Shown piece by piece: positions 2,609 through 21,976 of a stretch of 23,461 nt of DNA (positions are counted from its first letter, which is position 1; every line of letters begins with the position of its first letter). A model generated the notes under the pieces. That model was not told where the DNA came from. It searched no databases and saw only the letters and a list, made by a program, of their open reading frames with translations. The DNA is taken from IMG/VR virus record IMGVR_UViG_3300027754_000450, positions 1 to 23,461 of that record; one strand, given 5' to 3'. Made by a program: the position numbers and the translations under genes. The stretch is from a virus.

Positions 2609-3431
2609 GGCAAACATTCTAACACAGATCCCGGAACTAAGCGCAAGCAGAAATTTCACCCCATTTGGGGCTGGAGAATTTGACAGGCAAAACGCATCTA
2701 GGCCAATGCAGGAGCCCCAGAAGGTGGGGTGGACCGACGAGAAGGGTCAGCGCCTAGTCGCCATGTCTGAGCGCATGCGGTCGGCTGCGTCGATGGACGA
2801 TATCCGGGCAGAGACAACACAAAGAGCAATGGAGGACGAAGTGAGTAAAAATATTATGCAGGATCAAAACTTGATGGGGCCGAAGGTCCCAAAGAACGAA
2901 TACGAAGCAGCATTAGCAACAGTTGATATGGAGGCTAGGAAAGACAAGGCCGGAAACGTCATGGTCTACAATCTTCCTTCCGGGGACATGGGCGGGAGCT
3001 ATGAAGTCGCCGGGATCAATGACAAGTATCATCCCGCGGCCGCGCAGATGCTGAAGAACCTTCCGCCTGGAGAACGTCGAGACGCCGCGGCCAAGTACGT
3101 CGTAGAGTATACCAGGCCCATCACGTCTAAACTTCCAGAACCTTACAGACTTTTTTTCCAGGACCTAACGTTCAATAGGGGGCCGGCGGGTGCTACAAAG
3201 TTCCTGCAACGCGCAATCGGGGTGAAGGATGACGGAGCCCTTGGGCCTCAGACGCTCAAGGCCCTGGAGGGATTGAACCCATCCGAGGTAATGAAGAACG
3301 TTTCTGTCGAGCAGATGACCTACGAGAGAAGGCTTGCGGAGCAGAACCCGGAACGTAAAAAGTTCCTCAATGGTCTCCAGAATAGGGTCTCGAACAGATA
3401 TCGGCTTTTCGGGAATGCCCCAACCGGGTAA
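2607..3431 (+). CDS. Lysozyme-like protein: GH108-like domain plus C-terminal peptidoglycan-binding domain
   Basis: 274 aa. Residues 1-100 are polar with no clear domain. Residues 125-265 match the glycosyl hydrolase 108/PG_binding_3 architecture: the GGSY near 129-132 sits where the family has its EGGY active-site motif, followed by a helical region and by the binding segment FLQRAIGV..DGALGPQTLKAL at 199-220. The family cuts the glycan strand of peptidoglycan. Here the catalytic Glu position appears to hold Asp or Met (DMGGSY, 127-132), so activity is uncertain. There is no signal peptide, so export would need a holin, or it may act as a virion-associated wall hydrolase, which suits its position beside the polyvalent virion protein. 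The upstream AGGA is weak. It overlaps the next gene by 17 bases. Confidence 0.72.
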   Translation: MANILTQIPELSASRNFTPFGAGEFDRQNASRPMQEPQKVGWTDEKGQRLVAMSERMRSAASMDDIRAETTQRAMEDEVSKNIMQDQNLMGPKVPKNEYEAALATVDMEARKDKAGNVMVYNLPSGDMGGSYEVAGINDKYHPAAAQMLKNLPPGERRDAAAKYVVEYTRPITSKLPEPYRLFFQDLTFNRGPAGATKFLQRAIGVKDDGALGPQTLKALEGLNPSEVMKNVSVEQMTYERRLAEQNPERKKFLNGLQNRVSNRYRLFGNAPTG

Positions 3432-3804
3432 TCGTCAGACAGGAGCAGTAGGAGTTGCTAGGGTAATCGCAGGACTCCTCGCTTCCGGGTGGAACGTGTT
3501 GACCCCATTTGAGGACAACGCCGGGTACGATATTGTCGCGGAGAAGAATGGGTCATTCAAAAGAATCCAGGTCAAATCTTGCGGATCTCCAAGGTTGCAC
3601 AGCAGTGGCAGAAGGGGCCCGAGCTACAAGTTCAGCACCGGGCGCGGAGTCGACAAGAGGAAGTACGGCAAGTGCATCGACCTAATATTCCTAGTCGCGC
3701 TGGACAAGGATTTGCTGTGGGTATTTGATTCAAGAAAAATGAAAGCGACACGTTCCGCGTCTCCAGAAGACTCAATTGCCTGGATGAGTTTGTCGAAGAT
3801 ATAG
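3415..3804 (+). CDS. Small PD-(D/E)XK endonuclease-like protein
   Basis: 129 aa from the ATG at 3415, which overlaps the stop of the lysozyme-like gene by 17 bases. The open frame reaches back to 3334, but that part lies inside the previous gene and has no protein-like features. The N-terminal helix (RQTGAVGVARVIAGLL, 7-22), then WNVLTPFEDNAGYDIVAE and RIQVKS, give the core E/D39...Q52-V-K54 of the PD-(D/E)XK fold. The pattern resembles the group-I-intron-associated or Holliday-junction-resolvase-like branch. Conserved nuclease residues are present, so it is probably active, but the substrate is unknown. It may process recombination or packaging intermediates, or be a free-standing homing-type nuclease. 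Its coupling to a lysis gene is unusual. Confidence 0.6.
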   Translation: MPQPGNRQTGAVGVARVIAGLLASGWNVLTPFEDNAGYDIVAEKNGSFKRIQVKSCGSPRLHSSGRRGPSYKFSTGRGVDKRKYGKCIDLIFLVALDKDLLWVFDSRKMKATRSASPEDSIAWMSLSKI

Positions 3805-3851
3805 CAAGTCAAGCTAATTAAAATTCCCCTAAAATAATATATTGACTCGAA

Positions 3852-3866
3852 TGCCGTGTCTCGGCA
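3852..3866 (+). repeat. Short hairpin in the leader of the nuclease/SSB/exonuclease operon
   Basis: TGCCG (3852-3856) and CGGCA (3862-3866) form a perfect 5-bp stem with a 5-base loop, 32 bases before the ATG at 3899. A TTGACT (3842-3847) lies just upstream and matches five of six bases of a sigma70 -35 box, but no good -10 follows at 16-18 bases. The 94-base gap 3805-3898 probably holds the promoter or processing site of the operon that follows; I cannot fix the start point. Confidence 0.35.
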
Positions 3867-3887
3867 GAGTCCGGTGATCTTGAAACG

Positions 3888-3894
3888 AGGAGGT
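3888..3894 (+). promoter_or_regulatory. Near-perfect Shine-Dalgarno (AGGAGGT)
   Basis: AGGAGGT lies 4 bases before the ATG at 3899, the strongest ribosome binding site in the window. It decides the start at 3899 over the in-frame ATG at 3914 and suggests high translation of the first gene of the nucleic-acid module. Confidence 0.8.
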
Positions 3895-3898
3895 CACC

Positions 3899-4312
3899 AT
3901 GGGCGGAGGGAAAATGTCACGCAACAAGGGGAAACGCGGTGAACGCGAGGTATCAAGCCTGCTCAGTGAGGCTGGATGGAAGGCTAGGCGCGCCCAGCAG
4001 TTCTGCGGGTCACCGGATGGGGGAGCTAGTGATGTACTGGTCGAATCAGAATTCTGGCCCTACCACGTCGAGGTCAAGTACTGCCAACAAACCAAAATTT
4101 ACGATTGGATGCAACAATCTTCCAACGATTCAAAAACTGGTAAGACGCCTATCGTCTGTCATCGAAGAAATCAAACCGAATGGCACGTCACAATGAAATT
4201 TAAGGATTGGATCAATTTAGTGAATAATAGTCTTCCGATCGTGTTGCCAGCAGTCACACACGCAAAAGACATTCATCAGACTTCACCTCAGATAAACCCA
4301 AATAAACCATAA
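3899..4312 (+). CDS. Holliday-junction-resolvase-like PD-(D/E)XK nuclease
   Basis: 137 aa. The N-terminus (SRNKGKRGEREVSSLL, 7-22) with E15/E17, then RRAQQFCGSPDGGASDV with D45, then HVEVK with E58-V-K60, gives the E...D...ExK layout of resolvase-like phage nucleases. I have seen the same order (KGKRGE, RRxQQF, PDV, HVEVK, VVxHRRN, WxVTM) in phage proteins annotated as putative Holliday junction resolvase or PDDEXK-like. The HRRN (about residue 88) and WHVTM match as well. A resolvase would debranch replicating or packaging DNA. The start has a strong SD. It sits 15 bases before the SSB-like gene, whose own AAGGAG lies in that gap. Confidence 0.72.
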   Translation: MGGGKMSRNKGKRGEREVSSLLSEAGWKARRAQQFCGSPDGGASDVLVESEFWPYHVEVKYCQQTKIYDWMQQSSNDSKTGKTPIVCHRRNQTEWHVTMKFKDWINLVNNSLPIVLPAVTHAKDIHQTSPQINPNKP

Positions 4313-7202: not shown

Positions 7203-7351
7203 TCTTCGTCCAGTGGGGCGAAAGGTACTACGCGGTGACTTCCAACGGAGATATTTTTGATTCTGGCGGGAAGCTAACAATCATCCCGGAGGGGCTGAAG
7301 AAAGCAATCAAGGAGGCGGGTATTCATGAAGAGGCAAATAGTAACAGTTAG
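7199..7351 (+). CDS. Small hypothetical protein, 50 aa
   Basis: The ATG overlaps the preceding stop (ATGA). The protein MIFVQWGERYYAVTSNGDIF... has a short beta-rich start with a WGERYYAVTSNGDIFDSGGKL pattern, as in a small beta-hairpin domain, and a basic helix (EGLKKAIKEAG). The AAGGAGG for the following glycosyltransferase lies inside it. Function unknown; it has no membrane segment. The overlap and the clean frame support a real gene. Confidence 0.5.
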   Translation: MIFVQWGERYYAVTSNGDIFDSGGKLTIIPEGLKKAIKEAGIHEEANSNS

Positions 7352-7970
7352 TTGCCAGTTGCCGGAATGGTTTGAGAAACATTCCCTGCCAAGGATGGAA
7401 GAATCGTCTAAGCGGTGGGACGCAAATCTTGTAGTCATTAGGCCAGAGAAGCCGATCGGACTGCTAGCCAAAATGTCACTGGTCGACGCGGTGCAGAATG
7501 CTGACAGGACTCTGTTTGTCGACAGCGATGTATTGATCTCGCGCGAGTGCGTAAACCCATTCGAGACTTTTCCCCAGGGACACTTCTATGCCTGTGCCGA
7601 CGCTCCTCACGGTGACCAGCTACATTGGGGCCGGGCAAACGAGATGATCTTATCTCAGGCAATGCTCGGATCGGTCAAGTGGACCCAGGGTTACTTCAAC
7701 ACCGGGGTCATGGTTTGCGACAGGCAACATGCAGGCGCCTGGGCCAATTTCGTGTACGCACCATTCGCATTCCCTGAGCAGACTTTCACCAACTACCGGG
7801 CCAGGATGCTCGGTTACTCCATTCGTTTCCTGAGTTGGGAATGGAACGCGATGGAGATTAATACCCCGAAGGATAAGAAACAGTCAGACGGATTCATGCC
7901 ACACGCAGCCGGGATCTACGGAGATGCTAGGGCGAAGTGGATTGAGGAAATGGACAAGGTACTGCCATGA
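7326..7970 (+). CDS. GT8-like glycosyltransferase
   Basis: 214 aa. It has the GT-A layout of retaining family-8-like transferases: LFVDSDVLI with the metal-binding D66-S67-D68, YFNTGVMV (FNTG, 124-127), EQTFTN (151-156) and a C-terminal HAAG (193-196). These are the DxD, NxG and HxxG positions that bind Mn2+ and the nucleotide-sugar. At 214 aa it is shorter than most bacterial GT8 proteins but complete for the core. There is no membrane segment, so it acts in the cytoplasm. AAGGAGG (7310-7316) precedes the ATG. Its stop overlaps the GT9-like gene (ATGA), which suggests joint action on one glycan. The acceptor is unknown. Confidence 0.7.
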   Translation: MKRQIVTVSCQLPEWFEKHSLPRMEESSKRWDANLVVIRPEKPIGLLAKMSLVDAVQNADRTLFVDSDVLISRECVNPFETFPQGHFYACADAPHGDQLHWGRANEMILSQAMLGSVKWTQGYFNTGVMVCDRQHAGAWANFVYAPFAFPEQTFTNYRARMLGYSIRFLSWEWNAMEINTPKDKKQSDGFMPHAAGIYGDARAKWIEEMDKVLP

Positions 7971-9031
7971 GAATATTGACTCTAAAAGATCCCATGATGT
8001 TGGACGATCGTCTGCATCATCCACACGATTCTGTCGTAGTCCCGGACGAGGTTCGCGGAGTGCCCGGGACACATGCCGATGCCTACACGATTCCTTACAG
8101 GGTTGGTTGCGCCTCGGGCGGATACGCGGCCCTTTACCGCGGTGGAGCGATCGGGGATCAGTTCATCGCCATGGGCATCGCCAGGGCAATGCAACACTAC
8201 GAGGGCGACGGAAGGATCGAGGCTTACGTTCCGCAAAGGCACTTGCCACTGTGGGAAGGATTCGCCGGAGTCAGGGTCATGCCATTAGCTCCTACGATTG
8301 CCACCTGGAAATCTTATAAGGGTCACGTCTGCCTGGACGATATCCTGTCGAAGACCGCGCACCTAGATGGCAACGTGTACGACTACGTCTACAGATCCTG
8401 GGGCGTCGAGGTCGACGACAACTTTAAGAAGCCTTACGCAAAGCTACTGGACAAAGACCAGAACGAACTTGCCGACATTGGATTCCATCCTGAAGGACCG
8501 TTCCTGCTTTATTCGATCAGCGGATCGAGCCTATGGAAGAGCTACCCAACCTACGAGGCGGGGCTGTTCATCAAGTCGTTCCTCAAGGAGAACAAGGATT
8601 GGCAAGTCGTAGCAGTGGGCCACGACGATCCTCCCTTGTCCATCACCCACAGCAGACTGATCAATCTCCAGGGAAGACTACGCAACATTAGGACGCTATT
8701 GCACCTAGCTGCGCGTTGCGACATGGCAGTTTGCCCGGAGTCGGCAGTCATGCATATGACAGCGATATTCGACGCTCCAACCGTAGGGTTGTACGGACCC
8801 TACGGACCTGAGCACACGTCGAAGTACTACAAGTATGTGAAGCCAATCTTTCCTAAAGATGTTTGTCCCCACGCCCCATGCTCGGTGTACGAGCAACCCA
8901 AGGACAAATGCAAAGACGCGGTCAACGCAATACAGGGAGAACCCAAATGGTGCAACGTTCTAAGGTCAATCAAGCCAGAAGATATTCTGGCAAAGACAAA
9001 AGAAATCCAAGCAAACCTAAAACAGGCATAA
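7967..9031 (+). CDS. GT9-like (heptosyltransferase-fold) glycosyltransferase
   Basis: 354 aa. GGAIGDQFI (59-67) matches the N-terminal GxGD loop of family-9 transferases. CPESAVMHMTAIFDAPTVGLYGP (from residue 256) matches the D/ESGxMHLA...PxVALFGP donor-binding signature. The fold is the GT-B type of lipopolysaccharide heptosyltransferases, which use ADP-heptose; in phages the donor and acceptor are unknown. The C-terminus is Cys-rich (CPHAPC, DKCKD, WC between 305 and 330), as in some GT9 proteins. It starts in an ATGA overlap with the GT8-like gene. The two transferases may build a two-sugar modification of DNA, a virion protein or host surface glycan. Confidence 0.72.
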   Translation: MRILTLKDPMMLDDRLHHPHDSVVVPDEVRGVPGTHADAYTIPYRVGCASGGYAALYRGGAIGDQFIAMGIARAMQHYEGDGRIEAYVPQRHLPLWEGFAGVRVMPLAPTIATWKSYKGHVCLDDILSKTAHLDGNVYDYVYRSWGVEVDDNFKKPYAKLLDKDQNELADIGFHPEGPFLLYSISGSSLWKSYPTYEAGLFIKSFLKENKDWQVVAVGHDDPPLSITHSRLINLQGRLRNIRTLLHLAARCDMAVCPESAVMHMTAIFDAPTVGLYGPYGPEHTSKYYKYVKPIFPKDVCPHAPCSVYEQPKDKCKDAVNAIQGEPKWCNVLRSIKPEDILAKTKEIQANLKQA

Positions 9032-9207
9032 TCAGAATCGTTTCTGAGAAGAAAGTTGTCTGCTATGAGTTGGGCCTAGACGTGGACAAGGACGTCTACG
9101 AGTCAATCGTTGAGGCTGGGCGCATTCACATTGCGAACGACAAGGATGCTCTGTTCCAGTACGCGCTGAAGACAGCACTGAAGGAGTGCGCTAATGAACG
9201 ACTTTAA
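8947..9207 (+). CDS. Small hypothetical protein overlapping the GT9 gene
   Basis: 86 aa from the ATG at 8947, preceded by AGGGAGA at suitable distance; the frame is open further upstream but only inside the GT9-like gene. It overlaps that gene by 85 bases. The basic N-terminus (VQRSKVNQARRYSGKDKR) lies in the overlap. The unique part (IIRIVSEKKVVCYELGLDVDKDVYESIVEAGRIHI...DALFQYALKTAL) alternates strands and helices. No family is recognised. It overlaps the oxygenase gene by 14 bases. Confidence 0.5.
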   Translation: MVQRSKVNQARRYSGKDKRNPSKPKTGIIRIVSEKKVVCYELGLDVDKDVYESIVEAGRIHIANDKDALFQYALKTALKECANERL

Positions 9208-9757
9208 GCAGAAGATCCTGACAGCAGTGTGCGAGCCGGACGTGTTGACCGAGCACCAGTGCAACATGATCCGCGACGACGCCCAGGTCATAGGCATGAA
9301 AAGATCTCACGTCATGAATAAGGATGGCACGACCCGGGCCGCGTTCACCAGGACATGCTCGTCGTGTTGGGTGCCGTTCGCGGAACATTACAAGTGGCTA
9401 TACGAAGTGGTAAGGAACATGGCCGGGGACCTAAACCAACAGCACTACAGGCTGGACATTACCGGAATGCAACAACTGCAGATCTTGCGATACAGGCCCG
9501 GGCAGTTCTTCCTGCCACACTTCGACTGCTTCGATGGTAGCGATCGCAAGCTAACGATGGTGATCAATCTATCAGACCCAACAGAGTTTCTCGGTGGAGG
9601 GCTCAGGGTTGAGTGCGACTTGCACAACGCTAAGGATGTTAAGAAGCGGGGATCGGCGACGATGTTCCCCACCTACATAAGGCACCAGGCACTGCCAGTG
9701 TTCTTTGGCTCCAGGTGGGTCCTGGTCGCCTGGTTGACCGGAGGACAGTGGAGATGA
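9194..9757 (+). CDS. 2-oxoglutarate/Fe(II)-dependent dioxygenase, prolyl-4-hydroxylase type
   Basis: 187 aa. The double-stranded beta-helix signature is clear: QILRYRPGQFFLPHFD with H109 and D111 (HxD), the GGGLRVE strand near 134-140, RHQALPVFFGSRWVLVAW with the distal H164, and R174 for 2-oxoglutarate. Length and motifs match PKHD/P4H-like oxygenases common in phages, which hydroxylate protein or, in other branches, nucleobases. All metal ligands are present, so it is probably active. It follows two glycosyltransferases, so hydroxylation followed by sugar transfer is possible, though no substrate is known. It ends in an ATGA overlap with a tiny membrane peptide gene. Confidence 0.8.
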   Translation: MNDFKQKILTAVCEPDVLTEHQCNMIRDDAQVIGMKRSHVMNKDGTTRAAFTRTCSSCWVPFAEHYKWLYEVVRNMAGDLNQQHYRLDITGMQQLQILRYRPGQFFLPHFDCFDGSDRKLTMVINLSDPTEFLGGGLRVECDLHNAKDVKKRGSATMFPTYIRHQALPVFFGSRWVLVAWLTGGQWR

Positions 9758-13776: not shown

Positions 13777-13862
13777 CCGAACTAATCCTATTGACCCCAT
13801 GCGGAATTCTGTGCACCGTGTTTATGTGGCTTATGGCTACAAGTAAGGAGTGTGGGAAATGA
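13773..13862 (+). CDS. 29-aa membrane peptide before dcm
   Basis: Its ATG has AAAGGAG 7 bases upstream and overlaps the previous stop (ATGA); its TGA overlaps the dcm ATG. Residues 3-23 (ELILLTPCGILCTVFMWLMAT) form one hydrophobic span, with KECGK at the end. It also contains AAGGAG, the ribosome binding site for dcm. It may be a true membrane peptide or a coupling leader; size prevents a family call. Confidence 0.5.
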   Translation: MTELILLTPCGILCTVFMWLMATSKECGK

Positions 13863-15181
13863 AGTATTTATCTGTCTGTTCTGGCATTGAGGCAGCGTCC
13901 AAGGCTTGGGAGCCGATTGGATGGGAGCCAGTAGCGTTTTCAGAAATCGAACCATTCCCAGCCGCGGTGCTGAAGCACCATTGGCCGAAGGTTCAAAACC
14001 TAGGAGATATGACAAAATATGAGCAATGGAATATACAAAGCGGAACAATCGACCTTCTGGTCGGAGGAACACCCTGCCAATCATTCAGCGTCGCAGGATT
14101 GCGACAAGGGCTCAAAGACCCAAGGGGGAACCTCATGCTTACCTATCTTGCAATCGCTGAACGTTTCAAACCTCGATGGCTTGTCTGGGAAAACGTCCCC
14201 GGTGTGTTGTCATCTAACGGAGGAAAAGATTTTGGTTCCTTCCTCGGAGCGTTGGGGGAGTTGGGGTATGTCGACTGGGCGTACAGAGTCCTCGACGCTC
14301 AATGGTTCGGAGTGGCCCAAAGACGCAGACGTGTGTTCGTTGTCGCACATCTTGGAGAAGGGAGTCTTGCCGCAAAGGTTTTATTTGAGTCCGAAAGCGT
14401 GTGCAGGGATACTCCGCCGAGCCGAGAAACGAGGCAAGGAACTGCCCCCGATGTTGAAGCAGGCGTTGGAGGCGGTGAAGGAGTAGGTGCATTTAGAATG
14501 CAAGCGTTTGGGGAATACTCCAACGATGGAACGGTTGTCCTCTACGAAAACCATCCCAACGACAGCCGAGTAACTGGACCACACGATGTCGCACCTAGTT
14601 GCGTTTCACGATACGGAACGGGTGGTGGGAATTTGCAGTTGGTTCAGGAGGCGATTGCCTTTGAGCCTGGTATTGCAACGAGAGAAGGCAGCGAGGGCAG
14701 ATTTGTGAAAGAACTATCTCCGACATTGCGGAAGGAGATGGGAGATAATCAGGTGGCTGTCGCTTTTCCTATTGATACACAAAACATGACTGAAGGTCAT
14801 GCAAGCGGAGGTAAAGGACACGGGAATAATGGTGATCCTTCTTTCACGCTTACAAAAGGGCATAGTCACGCAGTCGCAGTCGATGTATACAACCAAGCAA
14901 TAGACGGAAATACGGCGGCTACTTTAACAAGCGCTTGCGGTGGTACTAACACAAGCGGCCCTAAAGCAATGCAATCAATGGCAGTACGCAGGCTCTCTCC
15001 AAGAGAATGTGAACGACTTCAAGGTTTCCCCGATGACCACACGCTAATCCCTTGGCGTAACAAGCCAGCGGATCAATGCCCAGATGGGCCACGCTACAAG
15101 GCGCTAGGTAATTCAATGGCCGTCCCGTGCATGGCTTGGATTGGAAAAAGGATTGACGCAGTAGAAAGGAATATGAAATGA
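13859..15181 (+). CDS. dcm: Dcm-type DNA (cytosine-5) methyltransferase
   Basis: 440 aa from the ATG at 13859 (AAGGAG upstream). All catalytic motifs are present: I (LSVCSGIEAAS, 4-14), IV (GGTPCQSFS with catalytic C73), VI (ENVPG, 111-115), VIII (QRRRRVF, 154-160), IX (RRLSPRECERLQGFPDD, 377-393) and X (YKALGNSM, 413-420). The enzyme moves a methyl group from S-adenosylmethionine to C5 of cytosine, probably to shield phage DNA from host restriction. The 215 residues between VIII and IX, where the target-recognition region lies, hold at least four loosely repeated units that end in VAF/IAF or similar. A long +1-frame ORF (14019-14486) overlaps its first half. Its stop overlaps the next ATG. 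Confidence 0.9.
   Translation: MKYLSVCSGIEAASKAWEPIGWEPVAFSEIEPFPAAVLKHHWPKVQNLGDMTKYEQWNIQSGTIDLLVGGTPCQSFSVAGLRQGLKDPRGNLMLTYLAIAERFKPRWLVWENVPGVLSSNGGKDFGSFLGALGELGYVDWAYRVLDAQWFGVAQRRRRVFVVAHLGEGSLAAKVLFESESVCRDTPPSRETRQGTAPDVEAGVGGGEGVGAFRMQAFGEYSNDGTVVLYENHPNDSRVTGPHDVAPSCVSRYGTGGGNLQLVQEAIAFEPGIATREGSEGRFVKELSPTLRKEMGDNQVAVAFPIDTQNMTEGHASGGKGHGNNGDPSFTLTKGHSHAVAVDVYNQAIDGNTAATLTSACGGTNTSGPKAMQSMAVRRLSPRECERLQGFPDDHTLIPWRNKPADQCPDGPRYKALGNSMAVPCMAWIGKRIDAVERNMK
14019..14486 (+). CDS. Protein-like ORF in the +1 frame inside dcm (possible overlapping gene)
   Basis: 155 aa entirely inside the methyltransferase gene. Unlike ordinary shadows it looks like a protein: an N-terminal polar region (SASQDCDKGSKTQGG), a central LNGSEWPKDADVCSLSHILEKG, and a strongly patterned C-terminus RFYLSPKACAGILRRAEKRGKELPPML. 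I recall this LSPKACAGILRRAEKRGKELP pattern as a recurrent phage protein annotated as hypothetical. The DNA is read in the dcm frame as the VAQRRRRVF...VLFESES region. AGGAGA lies 11 bases before the ATG, a slightly long spacing. It may be a genuine overlapping gene, or a frame that databases often predict because dcm is conserved. I cannot decide without selection tests. Confidence 0.45.
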   Translation: MSNGIYKAEQSTFWSEEHPANHSASQDCDKGSKTQGGTSCLPILQSLNVSNLDGLSGKTSPVCCHLTEEKILVPSSERWGSWGMSTGRTESSTLNGSEWPKDADVCSLSHILEKGVLPQRFYLSPKACAGILRRAEKRGKELPPMLKQALEAVKE

Positions 15182-19288: not shown

Positions 19289-21179
19289 CGAACTCCATAC
19301 GCGCATCCTTCGGGATCTAAAGAACCGTGCAACATGGGACGCCCGGCAAAGGCAGTTCTATGAGATGCGAACGTTTGGAATGCGTCGGAAGGTTAAGCCA
19401 TGGCCCACCGCGGCGGACATGCACGTCGCGCTGATTGATCGCATTATCGAAAGGCTCAAACCCAACTACGTCAACTCGGCCCTGGGCAACGACGTCGTCG
19501 CCGGGTTCGTTCCTATGCGCCAACAGTTGGCTCCCCTCACTGTTACCGCGGAGCGCTACTTCGACTACAAGATCCGAGAGCGTACCGCATTCCAATTTGA
19601 GATCGTTCGTCTAATCGACGACATGCTTTTGTTCGGTCGCTCTGTACTCAAATCAATTTGGGACGAGGGCAAGAAAGAAATTATTTTCCAGGCAATCGAT
19701 CCGACTAGGTTCATCGTGCCTGACCAGACCGTTGCCCTAGACGACGCCGACTACCTTTGCCACGTTATGGTCTTATCAGTTGACCAGTACAAGCGCGTCG
19801 CGGCCTATAACCAGGACGAGGACTTCATTAAGAGGATCGCCGGACGTGGGACCAAGTTCGAGGGGATCAACACCGAAAAAGAACAGGCTGTTTACCAACG
19901 TGAAGGTATCACCTACGACTCTCGCCCGGACCGCATTATCCTTTGGGAGATCTACACCAGGAACGAAGACGACGAGTGGAATGTTTCCACATACTCGCCC
20001 TTGGCAACCATGGAGCCTGTGCGTGAAGATTTCGTGCTTCCATACAAGCACAAGCAGTGTCCGTTCACAGAGTTTAGCTACGAGTTGACCAACGGAGGAT
20101 TCTATTCGTCACGCGGGGTCGCTGAGATCCTGGCTGCGAATGAGATGACCCTGGCGAAGCTGAAGAACTCCATGCTCGACTTTCTGGAACTGGCAAACCG
20201 TCCCCTGTTCCAGGCCGACAATCCTGTCTCTCTCAACATGGCTAACCTCAAGATGCAACCTGGGCAGATACTGCCCCAGGGCATTAAGCCTGTGCAGATG
20301 ACGACTCCTCCGATGGACTTTATGCGAGTCATGTACGACGAGCGCGCGGAGGCGGAGCAGAGGGTTGGAACAATTGATTTTGGGGTCGGCAACAATCCCG
20401 CGGAACCTGGTAGCTCCAGAAAAACAGCAACTGAAATTCAAGCGTTGGTGAACACCGGGTCCGCGGGTGCTGATTTACGCAACCGTCTTTTCCGCATGTC
20501 GCTAGGTCGCCTGTTCCGTCAGTGCTGGTCGATCTATCTGCAGTACGACAAGAAGGATTTGAATTTCCGATATGCAGAAGATACCGGGACCGTCCCGCCG
20601 GAAGCATTGCACGAACAGTATTCGATCATGCCCAAAGGTGGGTACGATTTCCAGACTCGCCAGTTCCAGCTTCAGAAGGCAGTAGCCCGAATGCAGTTGC
20701 TCGGGCAGTCTCCTTTCATCAACCAGGCTGAACTTGTTAAATCAGTGCTCGAGCTCGACGATCCGAGCCTAGTACGTCGCCTGGTCCAAGACCCGATGAT
20801 GAACCAACAGGAGCAGAGGGAAGAGCAGGCGAAGGAACTCGCCGCGATGATGACGACCGCGTTCCCGATTGCGATCAAGCCGACCGACGATCACCGGGCC
20901 CATCTTGAGATCATCTTTGATTTCCAGCAAGCGGCCGAAAAAGGATTCCGCCAGGTCGACCAGGCTACAGCACAGGCGATCGGTCAGCACTTGGACCAGC
21001 ACTTACAGGCGCTCGAACAGATCGATCCGAACACTGCCAGGGCGATTACTGCCGAGCTCAAGAAAATGAATAGGGCGAAACAGCAACAGCAGGAACAACT
21101 GCAAGGCGCGCAGGGGCAACTACCACCCCCGGAAATGGCTGGACAGATGCCAGGAAACATGCAACAACCGATGGTGTGA
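19272..21179 (+). CDS. Portal protein
   Basis: 635 aa. The sequence fits podovirus-like portals: an N-terminal DLKNRATWDARQRQFYEMR helix, WPTAADMHVALIDRIIERLKP, LIDDMLLFGRSVLKSIW, IDPTRFIVPDQT, LPYKHKQCPFTEFSYE, NGGFYSSRGVAEILAANE and the Ala/Gln/Met-rich stretch that follows. The KTATEIQAL segment near residue 385 is typical of P22- or N4-like portals. The C-terminus is Gln/Pro-rich and disordered (QQQQEQLQGAQGQ). It forms the ring through which DNA enters the capsid. AAGGAA precedes the ATG. The stop overlaps the FkbM gene start (GTGA). Confidence 0.88.
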   Translation: MEPINNELHTRILRDLKNRATWDARQRQFYEMRTFGMRRKVKPWPTAADMHVALIDRIIERLKPNYVNSALGNDVVAGFVPMRQQLAPLTVTAERYFDYKIRERTAFQFEIVRLIDDMLLFGRSVLKSIWDEGKKEIIFQAIDPTRFIVPDQTVALDDADYLCHVMVLSVDQYKRVAAYNQDEDFIKRIAGRGTKFEGINTEKEQAVYQREGITYDSRPDRIILWEIYTRNEDDEWNVSTYSPLATMEPVREDFVLPYKHKQCPFTEFSYELTNGGFYSSRGVAEILAANEMTLAKLKNSMLDFLELANRPLFQADNPVSLNMANLKMQPGQILPQGIKPVQMTTPPMDFMRVMYDERAEAEQRVGTIDFGVGNNPAEPGSSRKTATEIQALVNTGSAGADLRNRLFRMSLGRLFRQCWSIYLQYDKKDLNFRYAEDTGTVPPEALHEQYSIMPKGGYDFQTRQFQLQKAVARMQLLGQSPFINQAELVKSVLELDDPSLVRRLVQDPMMNQQEQREEQAKELAAMMTTAFPIAIKPTDDHRAHLEIIFDFQQAAEKGFRQVDQATAQAIGQHLDQHLQALEQIDPNTARAITAELKKMNRAKQQQQEQLQGAQGQLPPPEMAGQMPGNMQQPMV

Positions 21180-21976
21180 GCGAAACGTCCAAGATATTCA
21201 ATATTGACCTCCCAGGGGTTTCCGACGGTCCTGTTAAGATAGTTTTAGATTACTCAAAGACGAGCCAGAAATATATTGGTTCGCACCTAGAAAAGGGCAT
21301 CGCATACGAGGGCGCGCTGTTCGCGCTCATTCTTAGAAAGCTAAAGCGCGGAGATACGTTCATTGACGCCGGGGCCCACGTCGGGTTTTTCAGCATGATC
21401 GCAGCCAAGCTGGTCGGAGAGGATGGGGAAGTTTACTCCTTTGAAATGAACCCGGACAACTATTCCATGCTGGTAATGAATGTCGGGTTAAACAATTTTA
21501 GAAACATAAGACCCCACAATTGGGCAATCTCAAACGACTCTGGCCCTGTGCAGTTTTGGCTTAACCAGGATAACGACGGTGGTCACTCGCTGTGGGATTG
21601 TGGGAAGCATAGTTTTAACGAGAAGAGCAGGGTTTCGCCACAAAAGATGGTCTCCTATTCAATAGCCCTGGATCATTATGATTCTTTTGATAAGGTTCAT
21701 TTTATCAAGATGGACGTTGAGGGAGCAGAGGTTCTGGCGTTAAACGGAATGATTGAGCTTCTCAAAAAGAATCTTCCAATCGTAGCGCTTGAGATAAACA
21801 ATTTTGGTCTAGCTCAAATGGGACACAGCTACCAGGACATTCGTGTTCTTATGAACAAAATTGGCTATAGGTGCTGGGTCATAGAGGGTGGTGACCCAAA
21901 AGAACTACCAATGGACGAGGAGCCCAAGTTTGATAATGTATACAACTTGTGTTTTTCGACGGAAAGCATTATATGA
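21176..21976 (+). CDS. FkbM-family methyltransferase
   Basis: 266 aa from a GTG in a GTGA overlap with the portal. GDTFIDAGAHVGFFSMIAA (residues 59-77) is the SAM-binding motif I, and FIKMDVEGAEVLALNGM (176-192) is the FkbM signature; VALEIN follows near 203-208. FkbM enzymes usually O-methylate sugars or other small hydroxyl acceptors. Finding one translationally coupled between portal and scaffold is unusual and implies co-regulation with capsid assembly. The target might be a glycan on a virion protein, perhaps built by the two glycosyltransferases at 7326-9031; that is inference. Confidence 0.75.
   Translation: MSETSKIFNIDLPGVSDGPVKIVLDYSKTSQKYIGSHLEKGIAYEGALFALILRKLKRGDTFIDAGAHVGFFSMIAAKLVGEDGEVYSFEMNPDNYSMLVMNVGLNNFRNIRPHNWAISNDSGPVQFWLNQDNDGGHSLWDCGKHSFNEKSRVSPQKMVSYSIALDHYDSFDKVHFIKMDVEGAEVLALNGMIELLKKNLPIVALEINNFGLAQMGHSYQDIRVLMNKIGYRCWVIEGGDPKELPMDEEPKFDNVYNLCFSTESII

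Follow-up and report, generated by a model that had tools for sequence, protein, structure and literature searches.

Overprinted phage genes are of a known kind, and long nested genes with proven selection are rare in dsDNA phages. In lambda, Rz1 is embedded in Rz, in another frame of the same message, and encodes the lipoprotein spanin partner. Two proteins are also known to come from one dcm region in the split C5-methyltransferases of the M.AquI alpha/beta kind. In mycobacteriophages, a "hidden" out-of-frame HNH endonuclease has been described in a methylase insertion, the ShiLan domain (PMC11855218). A review of overlapping viral genes is mainly concerned with small eukaryotic viruses (PMC8227390). 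No description of a nested gene in dcm was found in the open literature.

The window, i.e. the whole stretch of DNA analysed here, is a 23.5-kb virus record which contains dcm, a gene coding for a phage DNA cytosine-C5 methyltransferase that matches PF00145 (E=1.8e-52) and PHROG 116 (E=3e-94) and has M.HaeIII and M.HhaI as its nearest solved structures. There is a possible alternative start, GTG, at 13850. Motifs I-X lie within one ORF and, judged by its motifs, dcm is intact, since PCQ, ENV and QxRxR are invariant among 50 dcm relatives. Another ORF, of 155 codons plus stop, is located entirely within dcm in a different frame; it begins 160 nt downstream of the dcm start and so lies in the +1 frame of dcm, and the coordinates, length and frame assigned to it in the initial annotation are all confirmed. 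From the sequence comparisons given below, this ORF is almost certainly a real coding gene, overprinted in the phage dcm in its +1 frame. The features of the locus are as follows.

13859..15181, plus strand: dcm, 440 aa, the phage DNA cytosine-C5 methyltransferase gene that hosts the overlap (PF00145, PHROG 116)
14002..14006, plus strand: Shine-Dalgarno-like AGGAG located 12 nt upstream of the nested ATG (sequence)
14010..14012, plus strand: TGA in the +1 frame, 5' boundary of the nested ORF (sequence)
14019..14486, plus strand: nested +1-frame gene, 155 aa plus stop, ATG start (open frame, stop avoidance, purifying selection)
14019..14318, plus strand: nested N-terminal part, residues 1-100, variable and predicted to be mostly disordered (AlphaFold2, substitution ratios)
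14072..14080, plus strand: dcm motif IV PCQ, residues 72-74, inside the overlap (invariant in 50 dcm sequences)
14318..14332, plus strand: dcm motif VIII QRRRR (QRRRRV), residues 154-158, inside the overlap (Q154, R156 and R158 invariant)
14328..14483, plus strand: predicted nested C-terminal helical domain, residues 104-155 (pLDDT block means 79-97)
14385..14447, plus strand: signature LSxKACxGILRRAxxRxxxLP, nested residues 123-143 (conservation, codon-position pattern)
14393..14899, plus strand: variable target-recognition part of dcm, residues 179-347 (predicted structure pLDDT <50)

As with lambda Rz1, an entire gene appears to be nested out of frame in its host gene and probably read from the same message; unlike Rz1, the nested product is soluble-looking and helical and is encoded inside an enzyme gene, the proteins and function being different. 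The likeness to M.AquI consists in two proteins from one dcm region and in two bacterial loci in which the nested frame continues into the target-recognition part of dcm: in L308 (2230-3382) the nested ORF runs in frame through this part to motifs IX-X, and in L296 (1885-3955) it enters this part and can be followed as far as an assembly gap, while the catalytic half remains in the dcm frame in both. These fused loci may be simple frameshifts, and they would also fit a physical partnership. An AquI-like beta subunit was nevertheless rejected for the window, because the nested ORF ends at 14486, before the target-recognition part and motifs IX-X, which are carried by dcm itself together with the other motifs in one ORF. 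In another bacterial locus (L254, 2317-3838), the catalytic and target-recognition halves are in different frames and separated by a stop.

The ShiLan ORF is a mobile insertion that encodes an HNH nuclease in the third frame, whereas in the window the dcm sequence itself is double-coded. A hidden HNH insertion of this type was rejected as the nested ORF has no Pfam match and dcm aligns to its relatives and to HaeIII/HhaI without any insertion in the overlap. In Mycobacterium phage Thibault, the nested gene is interrupted by an annotated HNH gene; across gp102-gp105 (L333, 1329-3130), the HNH ORF lies within the methylase and the nested C-terminal core is left as the "hypothetical" gp104.

The nested gene is absent from nearly all annotation, and a few records give it methyltransferase names. 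The orf14 of Streptococcus phage MM1-1998, labelled "C5 methyltransferase beta subunit" (DQ113772), and the CDSs labelled "DNA methyltransferase" or "methyltransferase" in the S. thermophilus phages P0092 and pST occupy the same nested +1 position inside dcm, yet they have no PF00145 match and no PCQ or ENV; the streptococcal form differs from that of the window in lacking the GILRRAEKRGK tail. The window ORF has a match (1.4e-13) to PHROG 16143, as do 25 out of 40 members; the DNA methyltransferase label of this PHROG presumably originates from nested ORFs deposited under that name. A DNA methyltransferase identity was rejected because PCQ and ENV are absent from the translation, which has no PF00145, Pfam or NCBIfam match. 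In none of these records, including PHROG 16143, is the nested frame presented as a selected overlapping gene.

In order to count stops, dcm genes were gathered with baits from outside the overlap only (the N-terminal 53 or the C-terminal 66 residues), and expected numbers were obtained by permuting synonymous codons within each gene, with the dcm protein and codon usage kept fixed. In the window dcm, 5.8 stops are expected in the +1 frame and none is seen, so a chance origin of the open frame is excluded. For 116 distinct dcm genes, the number of +1 stops per gene is 0.34 compared to 4.50 expected, and the +1 frame is fully open in 81% of them versus 1.9% expected, the +2 control frame having 6.51 stops observed and 6.58 expected. 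Stops are not common in relatives, which according to the initial annotation would have counted against the gene: a non-redundant set of 67 dcm genes less than 90% identical contains only 15 stops in the +1 frame versus 258 expected, with observed/expected values of 6/57, 9/91.5, 0/61.8 and 0/47.6 in successive parts of the ORF. Upstream of the nested ORF the observed and expected +1 stops of these 67 genes agree, and their +2 frame shows no depletion comparable to that of the +1 frame. The in-ORF stops of window-type genes are confined to the first 48 codons, numbered from dcm residue 54, and precede a later start.

The nested protein is restricted to part of the C5-methyltransferase family, as neither the core motif nor stop depletion was detected in any of 27 C5-methyltransferases from random Pseudomonadota genomes (6.89 stops versus 6.72 expected, core in 0/27). 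Streptococcal phage dcm genes selected by their N-terminus have 1.33 stops versus 6.92 expected, with the core found in 33/33, and in core-selected gut Firmicutes phages there are 0 stops per gene in the tail versus 1.32 expected.

Selection on the nested protein was estimated by splitting dcm-silent changes into those altering the +1 protein and those leaving it unaltered, with the ratio of the two rates taken as +1 nonsyn/syn. Among close relatives, the ratio is 0.91 upstream of the ORF and then 0.32, 0.15 and 0.06 along it (0.15-0.32 in the nested N-terminal part), and the corresponding values for a more divergent set are 0.92 before the ORF and 0.50, 0.38 and 0.18 within it. The dcm-silent changes which alter the +1 protein are suppressed up to 16-fold, and those creating a +1 stop number zero across dcm residues 111-203 in both sets. 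In close relatives, dcm residues 181-198 show almost no variation at the third codon position (0.010) but are free to vary at the first (0.317), as is characteristic of a +1 reading frame. The synonymous-constraint type of test on a dcm alignment, as proposed in the initial annotation, found purifying selection in the +1 frame, and the constraint, a lack of which would there have counted against the gene, is very strong. Of the two alternatives put forward there, namely a hidden second gene inside dcm and a set of database "hypotheticals" that are mere out-of-frame readings of dcm, the strong +1 constraint and the avoidance of stops bear out the former and refute the latter. Judging by these substitution and stop patterns, purifying selection acts on the nested gene, and maintains its open frame, in phages that infect many bacterial phyla.

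Across dcm residues 161-203, the mean identity is 73% for the +1 translation and 52% for the dcm translation, the former being higher in 98% of pairs. As the +1 frame is better conserved than dcm and the position pattern is inverted, conservation after motif VIII is due to the nested protein and not to dcm. The earlier view that motif VIII and the segment after it are both conserved therefore stands for the motif, while the following segment is, by its codon-position pattern, conserved in the +1 frame and not for the sake of dcm. This agrees with the dcm model, in which residues 179-347 are without confident structure (pLDDT <50), while the confidently predicted nested residues 104-155 overlie dcm residues 158-208, and the first 30 residues of the unstructured dcm part overlie the nested helical domain. 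The nested gene would explain why phage dcm has a conserved stretch after motif VIII that lacks a structure of its own. The target-recognition part (window 14500-14980) consists of repeated gapped modules which are strongly different between otherwise close relatives and look shuffled. In two other loci (L053 and L060), the dcm C-terminal HSPs are in another frame than the N-terminal ones, which suggests frameshifts inside the repetitive target-recognition part.

The nested start is ATG in 61 of 71 cases. The Shine-Dalgarno (SD) match at nested starts averages -5.5 kcal/mol compared to -3.45 kcal/mol in codon-permuted dcm, and a match of -5 or better is present at 72% of nested starts versus 27% in permuted genes, examples being CCTAGGAGATATGACAAAAT-ATG in the window and TTTAAGGAGTGGCCC-ATG in L238. 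The ATG starts and the SD enrichment point to internal initiation on the dcm message. Ribosomes would thus start on the nested gene within the dcm mRNA, with the nested protein and the methyltransferase being made together.

All 246 loci inspected (86 first-round loci, 80 from bacterial genomes and 80 from gut phages) hold the nested ORF in the +1 frame of a dcm. The full ORF, its core and profiles were used to look for stand-alone homologues, named in the initial annotation as possible support, among viral contigs, bacterial genomes and sampled phages and plasmids, and none was found; the other possibility raised there, that homologues exist only as the alternative frame of dcm, turned out to be true for 246/246 inspected loci. 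In a profile scan of 398 genomes, the true matches all overlap dcm, and a few weak ones fall in dcm genes without the ORF. Such linkage is expected of any overprinted gene and by itself is no proof of joint function. Given the strong constraint and the avoidance of stops, the strict linkage reflects an overprinted gene that is still inside dcm and never left its host gene. The carriers are phages and prophages of Proteobacteria, Acidobacteria, Verrucomicrobia, Planctomycetes, Actinobacteria and Firmicutes, and there is also an archaeal one, Methanobacterium virus Drs3. The C-terminal pattern FYLSPKACAGILRRAEKRGKEL, which the initial annotation linked to phage proteins annotated as hypothetical, is present in the nested ORF and was indeed found in hundreds of phage records.

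Phage P1 carries an unannotated 157-aa nested ORF at 66728-67201 in dmt (NC_005856), and P1-type copies were detected in 493 out of 5,426 complete E. coli genomes; among the matches listed, the annotation names the methyltransferase only. The target-recognition part has been exchanged among P1-type phages, and in the exchange region diverged copies compared to P7 are 36-48% identical in the dcm frame and 49-61% in the nested frame. With its smaller divergence at this exchange, the nested frame preserves the consensus of its C-terminal helices. Since P1 carries the nested gene, its function can be directly tested in a standard laboratory phage, and past deletions or mutations of phage Dcm/Dmt will also have removed or altered the second protein. 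In Escherichia phage vB_EcoM-813R1 (L329), both dmt and its nested frame break off soon after the core, and genes nearby are split as well, which may be due to sequencing errors in the record.

According to AlphaFold2 (run on A2), the nested product is predicted to consist of a disordered N-terminus (residues 1-100, pLDDT about 42-69 by block), which overlies the folded dcm catalytic domain, and a confident three-helix C-terminal domain without known relatives (residues 104-155, pLDDT block means 79-97), with helices at residues 108-114, 125-138 and 144-154. The C-terminal consensus is LSxxLE ... FxLSxKACxGILRRAExRGKxLPxxLxxAL, and the signature LSxKACxGILRRAxxRxxxLP is invariant or nearly so in 116 sequences. 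No match was found for 40 nested members in Pfam/NCBIfam or for the nested product in a PDB sequence search, and in the PADLOC families there was none except for one member with a weak match to type II methyltransferase models. The matches obtained with Foldseek/VIA, to region 2 of mycobacterial sigma factors (Z 3.4 over 43 residues), are weak and do not lend themselves to interpretation, and a viral structure library matched only Thibault gp104 and one phage methyltransferase model.

With regard to function, the product of about 155 aa, in which a flexible N-terminus is followed by a small, basic and helical domain, may be a partner of the methyltransferase. Through its conserved C-terminal helices, this partner would bind the enzyme, or the enzyme plus DNA, and tune the activity or timing of the enzyme. 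This partner model is put forward tentatively, at somewhat less than an even chance, and the wider proposal of a pan-phage family born by overprinting in dcm, never found outside it and acting as an obligate partner (a regulator, a specificity factor or a protection factor) is believed to fall just as slightly short of probable. The statement taken as a whole, with an overprinted gene, an internal start on the dcm mRNA and a product that is the methyltransferase partner, is about evenly balanced. If the product is an obligate partner, the phage methyltransferase, that of P1 included, would in effect consist of two proteins, for which one stretch of DNA codes in two frames.

The partner is favoured over a feedback regulator of dcm expression and over a guard of methylated DNA. 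As a feedback regulator, the product would be a small basic DNA- or RNA-binding protein limiting a potentially toxic multispecific methyltransferase, in agreement with the basic and well conserved C-terminal helices and with co-expression by internal initiation; it is considered unlikely, as there is no match to a known DNA-binding fold, and promoters and target sites of host genes vary among phages, which makes a shared operator improbable. Somewhat less likely still is a role in protecting the methylated phage genome, and not the enzyme, against modification-dependent (type IV, McrBC-like) restriction: 5-methylcytosine makes the phage a type IV target, and an inhibitor encoded inside dcm would couple methylation to protection. 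Such a role would explain why the nested gene is strictly linked to dcm in unrelated hosts and why its conservation is high whatever the target specificity, but type IV enzymes are not known to be universal in these hosts, Pfam gave no match, and PADLOC, which covers defence and not anti-defence proteins, gave none bar the weak type II methyltransferase hit.

Ribosomal frameshifting from dcm into the nested frame would yield a short methyltransferase variant (motifs I-VI plus a helical tail) instead of a free-standing protein. Selection on the +1 frame with its C-terminal part most constrained is consistent with such a variant, which nevertheless seems very improbable because a start codon and SD, neither of which a frameshift needs, show their enrichment precisely where the selected frame has its 5' edge, and stop depletion also begins there. 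That there is no gene, the openness of the +1 frame being a by-product of dcm motifs or codon bias or else a nucleotide signal such as a target-domain recombination anchor, agrees with the confinement of homologues to the alternative frame of dcm but is hardly credible, as the depletion persists with dcm protein and codon usage fixed, the +2 frame is normal, the 27 control methyltransferases are negative, and third positions of the +1 frame are free, although a signal at the DNA level would constrain them too.

Several other genes of the window were recorded alongside. Two glycosyltransferases (one GT8-like below the cut-off, the other GT9) and a 2OG-Fe(II) oxygenase lie in a row at 7326-9757, and PD-(D/E)XK nucleases of two families, PDDEXK_5 and PDDEXK_15, almost adjoin each other at 3334-4312. 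A methyltransferase at 21176-21976 (PHROG 8156; FkbM-like by eye) directly follows a 635-aa connector/head-tail adaptor protein (PHROG 332), which is the probable portal.
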